Shown here: positions 2,576 to 7,819 of the stretch, piece by piece
Layout: each line of letters opens with the position of its first letter
Numbering within the stretch: position 1 is the stretch's first letter
Source: Roseibium sp. Sym1
Lineage (GTDB): Bacteria > Pseudomonadota > Alphaproteobacteria > Rhizobiales > Stappiaceae
Reading direction: 5' to 3'
Length of the DNA: 64,000 bases
NCBI RefSeq assembly: GCF_027359675.1
Contig: NZ_CP114786.1
Location: 3,942,501-4,006,500, forward strand
Notes under the pieces: model-generated
What the model was told of the DNA's origin: nothing
The model's input: only the letters and a program-made list of their open reading frames with translations
Database searches by the model: none
Program-made: the position numbers and the translations under genes

Positions 2576-3742
2576 ATGTCCGTCAACATGTCCAGTATTA
2601 GTGCCCGTGTCTCCGGCCTGTTTGCGAGCCACTTCTTCGGAGTTGGCCTGTTTCTGCCGTTCTTTCCTGTCGTCCTGGGGTTTCGGGGGCTTGACGCCAC
2701 CGAGATCGGACTTGTCCTGGGGATCGGCACGATCGCCCGAATCGGTGCCAGCCCGATTCTGTCGAACCTCTCCGACAGGACCGGCCAGCGGCGCCTGTCG
2801 ATCCTGATCTACTCACTGGCGGCAGCCGCTTTCATAGCGCTCTACTTCCTGCCCTTCGGCCTCGTTTTTCTTTCGATTGCCGTTGTCGGATACATGGTCA
2901 TGAATGCGCCGGTGGTGCCGCTCAGCGATGCTTATGCGCTCGATGTCCAGCGCAACACGGGCGCGGATTATGCCAGGATGCGCTTGTGGGGATCGGCAGG
3001 CTTCGTCGTTGCCAGCATCGTTGGCGGAACGCTTGCCTCGGAGGGAACGTCGTGGCTGCTGGTGGTTGCCGTGGGTCTTGCCTCGCTGGCGACGGGAGCG
3101 GTTGCCATGTCGCTGCCGCGTCAGAAACGCGGCGCGAAGCCGACCGACGCCGATTTGGCGGACGCGGACAGGGGCACACCATTCCGAAGCGTCTGGTTCT
3201 GGCCGCTGCTTGTGGTGCTCGGCCTCTACCAGGCAAGCCACTCGGCCTTCTACGGGTTCGGAACGATCTACTGGCAGGCCATGGATGTCCCCGATTTTGC
3301 CATCGGAGTTCTGTGGGCCACGGGTGTTGCGGCCGAGATTGCCCTGTTCACCATCGCGGGCAAGCTGGCGCAGCGGTTCGACCCGCCGATCTTCCTGCTG
3401 GCCGCAGGGGCGGCGGCAACCGTGCGCTGGCTGCTGTTTCCCTTCGCCGGCACGCTGCCGGCCATGGCGGCGCTGCAGACCCTGCACGGCCTGTCCTTCG
3501 GCGCGGCGCATCTGGGCGCGGTCGCGATCCTGGCGCGGGTGGTGCCGAGCCGCTGGGCCGGAACCGGCCAGGGCCTCCTTGCCACATCCGTCGGCATCCA
3601 GATGGCCATCGGCCTCAGCATTTCCGGTGCGCTCTATGAACTCAACCCGGACTGGCCGTTCTACCTGATGTCCATGGTGGCGGCGATTGGCACCCTTGCG
3701 ACGCTGGTGATGACACCGATGCTGCGGCGGCGGATGGGGTAG
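2576..3742 (+). CDS. MFS transporter (HcaT/MFS_1-like)
   Basis: This is a polytopic inner-membrane carrier of 388 residues with about 12 hydrophobic segments. The first helix pair is followed by an A-loop-like segment, SNLSDRTGQRR, at about residues 62-72, a major facilitator hallmark. The overall look matches the phenylpropionate-transporter-like (HcaT) branch, but the substrate is unknown. ATG 2576 is used; a second ATG at 2588 is an alternative. It diverges from cheZ with a short or overlapping leader. The next gene downstream is convergent and belongs to the AT-rich island. Confidence 0.8.
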   Translation: MSVNMSSISARVSGLFASHFFGVGLFLPFFPVVLGFRGLDATEIGLVLGIGTIARIGASPILSNLSDRTGQRRLSILIYSLAAAAFIALYFLPFGLVFLSIAVVGYMVMNAPVVPLSDAYALDVQRNTGADYARMRLWGSAGFVVASIVGGTLASEGTSWLLVVAVGLASLATGAVAMSLPRQKRGAKPTDADLADADRGTPFRSVWFWPLLVVLGLYQASHSAFYGFGTIYWQAMDVPDFAIGVLWATGVAAEIALFTIAGKLAQRFDPPIFLLAAGAAATVRWLLFPFAGTLPAMAALQTLHGLSFGAAHLGAVAILARVVPSRWAGTGQGLLATSVGIQMAIGLSISGALYELNPDWPFYLMSMVAAIGTLATLVMTPMLRRRMG

Positions 3743-3759
3743 CACTCCAAAGTCACTAG

Positions 3760-4551
3760 CTAAAGTGAGAATGCTTCTCTGATTGACTGGGCTTTCCAGT
3801 AGCCACTTCGCGGGAACAACAAATCAGTTAAAATACCATTTGAACGTAAGACTTCTTTCAGACGAGAAAAGTCGCTAGCTTCAATTCGGACGTCAACCTT
3901 CGAGATGAAACAATCCAACGAACCGGACCGAATTTCGGACTTCTTATCTTGGAGGTACTGCTCAAAGGTATCTGTCGAAAGCTGAAGATTACCCGCATCC
4001 ATTTTTCCAAAACAAGAGACACCGCCTAATTGCGAACGGATTCTATTAAATGATACTTCAGAATAATCTGTGAAAATAACGTCGTCAGGATTTGTGCTTC
4101 GATCAAGCCGATAGATTCCAATCACTCCAGGCGATCTTCTAAAATTCGTCGCCATGTATGCTGCGATTAGCGGACTTTTGGTCCAGTCCAAGAGTGGTGT
4201 CGGAACACCAAAGTGTTGCGCAATTACCATAAGCTGCAATCGCTTGTAGTCAGCACCTTTGAGGCTGCGTACGTTTTCGCGCTCCTTCAGGATCATACGA
4301 AGTTCTTTGCATTCAGCTAAGAAATCGTCACTTTGAAACATGCGAATACGAGAGTTTCGTTCCGTCTCTGAGGCAATGTCGCCTGTGCTCGTACGAAAGC
4401 CCGAAGGAACGAGACGCCAAGTTGAGTCTGCTTGACCCCGAAAAACAAATTTCTCTTCACATCCGAGTAGGCAGCCGTTCAGGAATTTGTCTAGAGATAT
4501 CTCATTGACTGCAGTCGGCAAACCAGCACGGGTTAATATCGGCTTAAACAC
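3760..4551 (-). CDS. FRG-domain protein, second gene of the AT-rich island
   Basis: The FRG domain (Pfam family of unknown biochemical function) is clear: VFRGQ at residues 36-40, W45 and P49, then AQHFGVPTPLLDW at 111-123 followed by PLIAAYMA. The rest (about 140-263) shows no domain I recognise. The start is GTG, sharing one base with the stop of the ATPase gene (TAGTG), so the two are almost certainly co-translated. Base composition is clearly more AT-rich than the flanking genes, indicating acquisition. FRG proteins often occur in variable genomic islands; a role as effector partner of the ATPase is inference. Confidence 0.85.
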   Translation of the reverse strand: MFKPILTRAGLPTAVNEISLDKFLNGCLLGCEEKFVFRGQADSTWRLVPSGFRTSTGDIASETERNSRIRMFQSDDFLAECKELRMILKERENVRSLKGADYKRLQLMVIAQHFGVPTPLLDWTKSPLIAAYMATNFRRSPGVIGIYRLDRSTNPDDVIFTDYSEVSFNRIRSQLGGVSCFGKMDAGNLQLSTDTFEQYLQDKKSEIRSGSLDCFISKVDVRIEASDFSRLKEVLRSNGILTDLLFPRSGYWKAQSIREAFSL

Positions 4552-6530
4552 TATATCACTGACTCTATTTTTGAAATTTGATTTGAGACACTTTTGAATA
4601 GTTGTTCATTTTGAACGTGTAGCCGCTCTCCCATGGATTGGTTTGGAATGCTGCCGCCACTACGACGATCAGTGAGATCTTCGCGATCTTGTGCAATGCG
4701 TCGTCGCCAGAAGGGAATCAACTTCGGTTTAAAGCGGCTTGAAAATGGTTTTAACGCAACACCGCTCGATCTGTTCATTTCGGCGAGCTGCTCTTCTCGC
4801 TTGAGGATGTCTTTGATGAACACAAGATTGAGGAGGCACTCATATTTGAAAGAATCCAACTTAGAGTAATACCCACAGCCATATTTTAGCCGAACGGAAG
4901 CATTGAAGTACTGAATTGAACGCTCTAAGTCGTCACAGCATGTCAAAGAAAAATATGCAGCAACGGAGCGGTCATCAACTATATACTGTTCTCGAAGCTC
5001 ACGGCTGTCGCCGTCGCCTTGCAACAAAACGCCACTACTCGGTACGGCCCTTAAGATTCCAGCTAAAGTAAAGGTTTCAAACAAGTCACGAACGCCGCCG
5101 CTTGTGTATCCTATCTTCCGCAATTTCTTCACGAACGGTTCGGCGTACATACACTTTGCAAAGTGAACGTCATCCGCCGCAAACTCCTCCCAATTCTCGG
5201 ATAATTGAGCAATGGCTATAACACCAAGAAGTGGGTTTCGACGGAACTCATCGTCCTCTGAGACGACTCTAAAAATGTTCACTGGAAATCCAACCGAGAT
5301 GGCATTGTCTATATTTCCGGCGACCCGAAAATCAAAAAGACTTTCCAGCAATCGACGACGAAGGTATTTGGGATCGTTTTTTGTGATTCCTACGACGTTC
5401 TCTTTTTCAAGATAAGATAGCATGGCGATTATGGGACTTGCGTAAGCACGCAAACCATAGATTTTCATCCTCCTAATCGATCTGCCGCAAAACGGCTTAA
5501 TTACAGAGTTGACCTCTTTCTCGGACTTTAGCAACCAATTACTTATCGTCTCAACGTAATTCGAGAAAGATACCTGCATAGTGGCGTCGCGCCGAAAAAT
5601 GGGAATTTGCTGAGGATCATGTCTGACTTTTTGAAATTCCGAGTCGTTCTCAAATGTTAAAAACCGATGCATCAGTTTTGGGACGCTTAGCTTATCTCTT
5701 GTATCGTCTTCAGCTAAGACCAACTTGGGTTTCGAATTGACAAACATACCCGTTGATATCGAAGACACATGCCGGTACGTGGTAGTTCGGCAGGACACGA
5801 TGTACCTTAGAGGCGAAATCCTTTCTTCGCCCAAAGCGGTGGCCTTTTTGTCAAGTGCGGTATTCAATTGATTTAGGTAAACAAACACCATTCGACCGGC
5901 GTCTACTGACAAGCTGTCAATATTATCTAAAATAAAGTATAGTTTTCTATTCTTAACAACATTCAGCCAGCATACGATATTCTGAAATATTTCTTCGGGT
6001 CTCTCGTTTGCAAATCGGGCTCTCGATAAACTATCTTTTTTTTGCGTGGCTACTATCCATTCTTCAAATTGTCGATTTTCTTTCTCATTCAGTAAGATGC
6101 TAATTGCCTCGACCAAACGATTTAGTAACGAAGTCAAAAAGAATTCTTCACCGACTGGAACTTCTAGATCACTTGTATCAACGTACAAAAAACGACCGAA
6201 ATCTTGGTACGTGCCCACCACTCGGTGAATTAAGGTGGTTTTGCCACTGCCTTCACACCCCAAAACGACAATATTGTTATTGTTATTAATTTGCTTTCTT
6301 AGGTCACCCTCGATCTTTGTTCGCGGTAAATAGAAGCTGTTTTCTAAAAGGTTTTTGGGCAAAGGATATCCATGTAGACGAACATGGTAGTGGTAGGCGC
6401 TATGATAAGCCTGAGATTTGTACGAAACCAACACGTCATCAAATACTCGTTCCAAGAGCTTTGTAGCCGATCTATTCGGGGAAGAGCTTTCAGCTTCGGA
6501 AATAAGGTCAATCTCAGGTCGAGTGCTCAA
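4551..6530 (-). CDS. STAND/AAA-like P-loop ATPase, first gene of the AT-rich island
   Basis: A 659-residue protein. The Walker A motif GCEGSGKT is at residues 91-98 after a hydrophobic strand, and Walker B LYFILDNID at 197-205. SCRTTTYR at about 246-253 resembles the arginine-containing sensor strand of STAND NTPases. The C-terminal 350 residues are helical without a recognised domain and could be a sensor or effector-binding region. The start is TTG at 6530, the only plausible initiator before the P-loop, with a GA-rich stretch upstream. It overlaps the FRG gene by one base. Codon use and base composition are AT-rich. Function is unknown; a sensor ATPase of a two-gene defence-like cassette is the working idea. 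Confidence 0.8.
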   Translation of the reverse strand: MSTRPEIDLISEAESSSPNRSATKLLERVFDDVLVSYKSQAYHSAYHYHVRLHGYPLPKNLLENSFYLPRTKIEGDLRKQINNNNNIVVLGCEGSGKTTLIHRVVGTYQDFGRFLYVDTSDLEVPVGEEFFLTSLLNRLVEAISILLNEKENRQFEEWIVATQKKDSLSRARFANERPEEIFQNIVCWLNVVKNRKLYFILDNIDSLSVDAGRMVFVYLNQLNTALDKKATALGEERISPLRYIVSCRTTTYRHVSSISTGMFVNSKPKLVLAEDDTRDKLSVPKLMHRFLTFENDSEFQKVRHDPQQIPIFRRDATMQVSFSNYVETISNWLLKSEKEVNSVIKPFCGRSIRRMKIYGLRAYASPIIAMLSYLEKENVVGITKNDPKYLRRRLLESLFDFRVAGNIDNAISVGFPVNIFRVVSEDDEFRRNPLLGVIAIAQLSENWEEFAADDVHFAKCMYAEPFVKKLRKIGYTSGGVRDLFETFTLAGILRAVPSSGVLLQGDGDSRELREQYIVDDRSVAAYFSLTCCDDLERSIQYFNASVRLKYGCGYYSKLDSFKYECLLNLVFIKDILKREEQLAEMNRSSGVALKPFSSRFKPKLIPFWRRRIAQDREDLTDRRSGGSIPNQSMGERLHVQNEQLFKSVSNQISKIESVI

Positions 6531-6835
6531 GGTTTATCTCTCAAAACAAAATTGTGTTCCTATCACTGCAACACGTTAAAGTATATTTCGCCGTTTTAAA
6601 AGACATAGGTACACGCGATTTAGTCGTGATATGCGTTCGCCTTTCACTCCATTTCTCAATCAGGATGCACGGCGCTTAAGACTACGGGGAGGGCCAATCC
6701 AAGACGGGAACTGAGAAAATGCTTGCACCAAGCCAAAAAAACCACATTTAGTTCGCCCTGTGTTGAAATCTTCTTTGATGTCTTTGCAGATAAGGCTCCA
6801 TCTCTGAACTCGGTCTCTTTGCGAAGCTTTCACAC
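6531..6835. other. Intergenic AT-rich spacer upstream of the island
   Basis: About 300 bp between the ATPase start and the dgcA stop. It shares the AT-rich composition of the island. It should contain the island promoter, but I see no convincing -35/-10 pair, no integrase remnant and no direct repeats marking an attachment site. A 61-codon open frame here overlaps the end of dgcA and is not credible. Confidence 0.4.
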
Positions 6836-7819
6836 CTACCCCCACAGCTCCGGCTCGGGGGGATAGAGGGTGCTGCCTTCGAAGCGCAGGCCGGGAGAGC
6901 GGTCCTCGGCCAGCAGAAGCGGCCCGTCGAGGTCGACATAGTCGGCCTCTTGCGCGATGACGACGGCGGGCGCCATGGCCAGCGAGGTGCCGAGCATGCA
7001 GCCCACCATTACCTTGAGGTCCTGGGCTCTCGCATCCTCGACAAGCTTCAGCGCGGCGGTCAGTCCGCCGGCCTTGTCGAGCTTGATGTTGACCGCGTCG
7101 TATTTCTCACGCAGTCCGTCGATGCTCTTGCCCGGGTGCAGGCTTTCATCGGCACACAGGGTCACGCGCCGCTCGAGGCCCGCGAGAAGACCGTCGTTTT
7201 TCGACGGCAGCGGCTGTTCGATGAGGGCGACACCGGCGGCCTCGCAGGCGGCCATGTTGACCTCGAAACAGCTCTCGTCCCAGGCCTCGTTGGCATCGAC
7301 AATCAGGGTGCTGTCGGGGGCGGCCTTGCGCACGGCGGCGATGCGGGCATCGTCGCCCGTTCCCGCCAGCTTGATCTTGAGCAACGGCCGGTGCGCGGCC
7401 GCACGCGTCTTTTCGGCCATGGCGTCGGGCGTGTCGACACTGATGGTAAAAGCCGTCGTGACCGGTGCGAGCGTGGCAATGCCGGCCAACTCGTGAGCCC
7501 GCTTGCCGGTGCGCTTGGCCTCCAGGTCCCACAGGGCGCAATCGACGGCGTTGCGGGCCGCGCCGGCGGGCATGATCTCCAGCAACTGTTCCCGGGACAG
7601 GCCTTCCTTGAGAAGTTCCGAGATTTCGCCGATCTGTGTCTGGACGCTTTCCAGGGTCTCGCCGTAACGGGGATAGGGCACGCATTCGCCGTGGCCGACA
7701 TGGCCGCCGTCGCGCAGCGTGACGACCACGACCTGGGCATGGGTCCGGGTTTCGCGGGAGATCCTGAAACCGCCCGCGATTTCGAAGCGCTCCGCCTCGA
7801 TCTCAACCGAAAGGCTCAT
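6836..7819 (-). CDS. dgcA: N-acetyl-D-glutamate racemase DgcA (enolase superfamily)
   Basis: An enolase-superfamily protein of the dipeptide-epimerase/DgcA group, 327 residues. Visible active-site elements are the KIK pair (K148, K150), acidic ligands in VDANEAW (D175), IEQPLP (E201) and CADES (D224), and a second-face lysine in IKLDKAGG. In the described DgcN-DgcA pathway it racemises N-acetyl-D-glutamate to the L form, feeding D-glutamate into L-glutamate metabolism. It overlaps dgcN by ATGA, so the two are translationally coupled; that pairing is what separates it from an L-Ala-D/L-Glu epimerase. Without the neighbour the substrate would be uncertain. Confidence 0.82.
   Translation of the reverse strand: MSLSVEIEAERFEIAGGFRISRETRTHAQVVVVTLRDGGHVGHGECVPYPRYGETLESVQTQIGEISELLKEGLSREQLLEIMPAGAARNAVDCALWDLEAKRTGKRAHELAGIATLAPVTTAFTISVDTPDAMAEKTRAAAHRPLLKIKLAGTGDDARIAAVRKAAPDSTLIVDANEAWDESCFEVNMAACEAAGVALIEQPLPSKNDGLLAGLERRVTLCADESLHPGKSIDGLREKYDAVNIKLDKAGGLTAALKLVEDARAQDLKVMVGCMLGTSLAMAPAVVIAQEADYVDLDGPLLLAEDRSPGLRFEGSTLYPPEPELWG

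Follow-up and report, generated by a model that had tools for sequence, protein, structure and literature searches.

The FRG cassette and its composition

The analyzed window, a 64,000-nucleotide stretch of the Roseibium sp. Sym1 genome, contains an AT-rich island of 3.1 kb (positions 3743-6835) with two genes, both on the minus strand. The upstream gene (4551-6530, TTG start) encodes a P-loop ATPase of 659 amino acids belonging to the ORC/STAND fold class, and the downstream gene (3760-4551, GTG start) a 263-amino acid protein with an FRG domain (PF08867, PDC-S15 in PADLOC); we propose the former as sensor and switch and the latter as effector. As read directly from the sequence, they meet in a TAGTG motif (4549-4553, minus strand), in which one base is common to the stop codon of the ATPase gene and the start codon of the FRG gene. 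Upstream of both genes lies an AT-rich region of 305 bp (6531-6835, minus strand, GC 0.436) that, judged by its position, is presumed to be the promoter region, and a promoter scan returned zero sites in it.

In 500-bp windows the GC content is 0.41-0.47 inside the island, as compared with 0.56-0.68 in the flanks. The two cassette genes have GC and GC3 values of 0.432 and 0.448, and 0.453 and 0.436, respectively, while GC3 in six flanking genes is 0.734-0.838. No frames of at least 80 amino acids other than the ATPase and FRG genes were found in the island, and hence no visible gene for a transposase or integrase. Repeats were looked for at the island ends, none of them convincing. For the window as a whole, there were no Rfam matches at gathering score and no tRNA genes, and the PHROGs matches were unnamed ones only.

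The insertion site in the genus

The island lies as an insertion between two convergent genes, identified by GC windows and by comparison with relatives. By eye, we take the gene at 2576-3742 to encode a major-facilitator transporter and the one at 6836-7819 an enolase-superfamily epimerase. The epimerase gene was present in all 45 genus genomes, including the one studied here, and the flanking genes were convergent neighbors in 42 of the 44 others. These 44 genomes correspond to loci L014-L042 and L091-L107, with L021 and L107 coming from a single genome and L105 representing an additional copy in a genome that is part of the set anyway. For L103 and L104, the two exceptions, no transporter gene was found in the 9 kb read. 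The preliminary description, which had placed an AT-rich gene pair with a TAGTG overlap between two conserved chromosomal genes, is thereby borne out. In the genome of locus L106 (G046), the epimerase gene matches as two overlapping pieces, as if frameshifted (L106:6037-7018).

Neither the ATPase nor the FRG gene was found at this site in any of the 44 other genomes, in the stretch read, and the cassette is present in one genome out of 45, i.e. its own. From one alignment end to the other, the flanking genes are 14-978 bp apart in 41 genomes, and in the genome of L107 the distance is 1,921 bp. DNA similarity to the cassette-free relatives ends at both flanking stop codons; the exact joints cannot be fixed, because the intergenic stretches, compared in nine relatives, vary in both length and letters. 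The foreign composition, together with the lack of the cassette at this position in relatives, supports its horizontal acquisition.

Two features of the cassette-free sites were also recorded. The two closest relatives both carry, in the stretch separating the flanking genes, a REP-like palindrome (CCTTCGAGACGG...CCTCCTCAGGATGA; L014:2482-2673 and L015:2482-2684). In L107 (3023-4943), 1.9 kb of other sequence lies between the same flanking genes, in part of which an HTH-like and a repeat-rich frame were recognized by eye; as this is an insert in another genus genome, the site may accept insertions.

An acquired cassette could be cargo with a non-defense role, for example in stress or metabolic regulation, or a decaying remnant. 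It is indeed solitary, with no mobility gene seen and no defense gene identified in its neighborhood, but both frames are open and carry conserved motifs, and occurrence in one of 45 genus genomes is typical of accessory conflict genes. We regard this explanation as highly improbable.

The FRG-domain protein

Against PF08867, with a cut-off of 25 bits, the FRG protein reaches 70.6 bits (E 2.2e-19), confirming the domain that had been recognized from the sequence. It also matches 14 PDC-S15 models in PADLOC (best E 1.1e-21), one of which is covered broadly (E 3.3e-21, residues 32-247 against profile positions 34-235 of 254), as judged by E-value rather than by PADLOC's own thresholds. In an alignment of 24 FRG proteins, comprising the window protein, six close relatives and 17 from other alphaproteobacterial genomes, the residues R38, G39, R53, H113, L121, D122, R170 and Q174 were identical throughout, and the conserved FRG core is therefore present. 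Among 653 candidates, six close (47-59% identity) and five remote relatives were found, and two further matches span the core domain only. No solved structure was significantly related by sequence, and the predicted model, built from seven sequences, has a mean pLDDT of 48.8, which is too poor for judging the fold.

One published study places Frg in the ADP-ribosyltransferase (ART) superfamily as a potential antiviral effector, possibly an NADase (PMC9503650). The earlier argument that FRG biochemistry is unknown, and that the pair may thus be a new type, does not stand in that form, since FRG is already both a PADLOC entry and an ART-superfamily candidate. What is already known is FRG as a listed defense candidate, and the unusual part of the cassette is its very rare ATPase.

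The ATPase

Two nucleotide-binding motifs are invariant in all six aligned members of the ATPase family, namely GCEGSGKT at residues 91-98, a Walker A motif, and LDNID at residues 201-205, which is Walker B-like. None of the Pfam STAND and AAA models reached its cut-off, the scores being 15.5 bits for nSTAND3 (cut-off 27.2), 14.5 for NACHT (26.7) and 11.6 for NB-ARC (23.5). The fold matches include CED-4, APAF-1 and AVAST5, with Orc1/Cdc6 and TnsC among the best, although globally all are weak (all TM-scores by query length under 0.3), and between a STAND and an ORC/AAA+ fold there is a tie, as CED-4 and APAF-1 equal TnsC in Z. The assignment to the ORC/STAND fold class holds. Of the P-loop ATPase with STAND-like features in the preliminary description, the Walker motifs and fold class thus stand, whereas the likeness to STAND proteins applies at the level of fold class only. 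A match to the MADS protein mad8 was rejected as an identity for the ATPase, as it spans only residues 79-201 of 659 (23.3 bits).

The resemblance to TnsC raises the question of whether the system is directed at nucleic acids, with a DNA-binding AAA+ ATPase of the ORC/TnsC kind loading onto foreign DNA and the FRG protein modifying DNA or a DNA-bound protein. TnsC is the best sequence match of the ATPase among solved structures (E 0.0028) and stands with Orc1/Cdc6 among the top fold matches, and a conserved GRSxRRMK stretch (residues 349-356) resembles an AAA+ sensor 2. However, the Z score of TnsC is no higher than those of CED-4 and APAF-1, and no DNA-binding domain was identified by profile search. 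We therefore consider a nucleic acid-directed system quite unlikely.

Rarity and co-occurrence of the two genes

The ATPase has very few relatives. Among 5.8 billion proteins, from which the best 7,997 candidates were scored, only five were found, at 41-67% identity. A full-length match occurred in one of 87 family, one of 385 class and one of 398 phylum genomes, each time the window's own (the three samples partly overlap, and for class and phylum the best three first-look candidates per genome were scored). Ten other matches in the family sample, scoring 19.6-23.4 bits, were dropped, as they comprise only the P-loop and its surroundings (42-61 residues). In 84,980 species genomes, among which the window's own record may be absent, no relative was confirmed, either with the ATPase alone (46 pattern matches checked) or with alignment A1 (123 checked). 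Likewise, none of 117 pattern matches in viral contigs was confirmed, and no relatives were found in plasmids and phages. A hidden relative in the sampled genomes is unlikely. The FRG subfamily is similarly restricted, its profile detecting one of the 398 phylum genomes at E 1e-15 (best six candidates per genome scored).

Because the family is so rare, co-occurrence of the two genes was seen in the window and could be inferred for one metagenome contig only. One ATPase relative (P0003) and one FRG relative (P0008) each come from a single metagenome contig of 7,210 bases, and this equal size suggests that they lie on the same contig. The remaining relatives, five close ones of the FRG protein (with longest contigs of 2,077-30,613 bases) and four of the ATPase (2,800-18,575 bases), have no contig size in common. 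For short contigs a missing partner is to be expected, but it is unexplained for the ATPase contig of 18.6 kb and the FRG contig of 30.6 kb. Moreover, tblastn with the window's ATPase found no relative in any of the 45 other FRG loci described below, within the 6-12.5 kb read around each, while the same method with the FRG protein as query recovered 35 of the 45. The co-occurrence anticipated by the preliminary description is hence weak rather than positive.

FRG genes and their neighbors in other genomes

FRG genes as such are more common. They were found in 16 of 289 genomes of the class sample (E up to 1e-6) and in 30 of 289 of the phylum sample (E up to 1e-8), the genome studied here being included in both. 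We surveyed the immediate neighbors, 87 in total, of FRG genes at 45 further loci, of which 17 belong to the class and 28 to the phylum sample; one locus with an internal stop (G555:C57) as well as six viral and four plasmid loci were excluded from the count. Among these neighbors, Pfam identified five GmrSD_N, three HSDR_N, two CAP12-type TIR and one Eco29kI nuclease domain, and PADLOC five NsnA/PD-T4-2_A, three REase_I, two TIR effectors and one REase_II. For comparison, PADLOC alone was run on 91 control proteins, taken from 19 of 20 stretches of the surveyed genomes, the twentieth (L149) having yielded none. None of the defense types of the FRG neighbors was present among the 25 of 29 control families listed, each represented by one member, and notable among the control proteins are a UvrD-type helicase and an RtcR-like regulator. 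With 11 of 87 neighbors and 0 of 91 controls, Fisher p is 0.0003, the categories having been picked after the tally had been seen; the stricter comparison of GmrSD_N and HsdR only (8 of 87) with all-comers in the controls (2 of 91) gives p 0.054. FRG genes are thus often found close to defense genes, although none was identified at the cassette itself. The suggestion that the island is of the kind typical of anti-phage pairs is supported as regards its acquisition and the company of FRG genes elsewhere.

Certain configurations recur. In five of the 45 loci (L076, L078, L112, L115 and L118), the FRG gene overlaps or adjoins a gene for a GmrSD_N (DUF262) protein of 353-365 amino acids. All five partners match PADLOC NsnA and PD-T4-2_A, and the combination looks like a more widespread two-gene FRG system than that of the window. 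Another FRG gene is situated inside a type I restriction operon in the order HsdM-HsdS-FRG-HsdR (L075:2977-10337), and in L111 and L113 the FRG gene adjoins genes related to the HsdR of this operon. In a Gabija-like neighborhood (L084:826-6390), an OLD-type ATPase/TOPRIM gene, in two open frames, and a UvrD-type helicase are located near the FRG gene. Since its partners vary in this manner, FRG resembles a mobile effector that is combined with various sensors, in the window with an ATPase of the ORC/STAND class.

The same data bear on a toxin-antitoxin-like or stabilization module, in which FRG would act as toxin, with the ATPase restraining it or serving as a kind of chaperone, and the pair would be kept for its own persistence with phage defense at most as a side effect. 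The overlapping two-gene layout would suit such a module, as would an FRG gene with an HTH gene 14 bp upstream (L083) and the candidacy of FRG as an ART-superfamily NADase, as put forward in PMC9503650. On the other hand, the first gene here encodes a 659-residue ATPase and not a small antitoxin, and the several FRG genes that lie within or next to genes for restriction enzymes and GmrSD_N NTPases are a better fit for triggered effectors. We consider a module of this type unlikely.

A putative anti-phage function

We favor, with moderate confidence, the interpretation of the island as a horizontally acquired two-gene anti-phage cassette with the ATPase as sensor and switch and the FRG protein as effector, probably acting in an abortive mode. 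The ATPase would bind ATP through its ORC/STAND-class P-loop domain and recognize a phage product, probably by its helical C-terminal half, while translational coupling may ensure that the FRG protein is made in step with it. Once the phage product acts, the ATPase would assemble in an ATP-dependent manner and the FRG protein would then be switched on. As a predicted ART-superfamily enzyme, the latter would most likely consume NAD+ or ADP-ribosylate a target, upon which the infected cell would stop growing. The genes and their overlap, the insertion, the conserved Walker and FRG motifs, the rarity and the general closeness of FRG genes to defense genes were observed directly; sensing, complex formation, NAD+ chemistry and abortive outcome are inferred.

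A more specific version, which would make this an undescribed type of defense, is put forward as a tentative proposal that may well prove wrong: on sensing a component of the phage, the ORC/STAND-class ATPase would assemble and license the FRG enzyme, a protein separate from it. If true, it would give an FRG effector its first defined trigger and partner. The original reading of the locus was right in direction and is partly supported. FRG is not rare and is listed as a defense candidate, yet our literature search, with preprints and most subscription journals outside its coverage, found neither a demonstrated FRG activity or trigger nor an ATPase-FRG pair. With a cassette this compact, consisting of two genes and including a dedicated ATPase, the chemistry of FRG could be put to a direct test.

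Comparison with known systems

The AAA+ ATPases Orc1/Cdc6 and TnsC share 11-12% identity with the window ATPase, and the cassette differs from their systems in that no transposition or replication partner was seen among its frames of 80 amino acids or more. From the STAND anti-phage proteins, i.e. Avs/AVAST and bNACHT, the ATPase is set apart by the lack of a STAND Pfam match above cut-off, by a proposed effector that is a separate protein and by the absence of recognized sensor repeats. PDC-S15, the FRG-domain phage defense candidate of PADLOC, is similar in that the window FRG protein matches 14 of its models, but presumably it is a single-gene entry, as its letter S appears to indicate, whereas the FRG gene of the window is coupled to an ATPase gene. 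Such PADLOC candidates are called uncharacterized in PMC12482510. PD-T4-2 is given as DUF262 plus HEPN in PMC10952713, with HEPN in the place that FRG takes in the window, and according to PMC9519451 its deletion raises T4 plaquing in the native E. coli strain. Lastly, the FRG and GmrSD_N pairs resemble the cassette in setting an NTPase-type partner beside a small effector, although the partner there is a DUF262 protein and in the window a P-loop ATPase.
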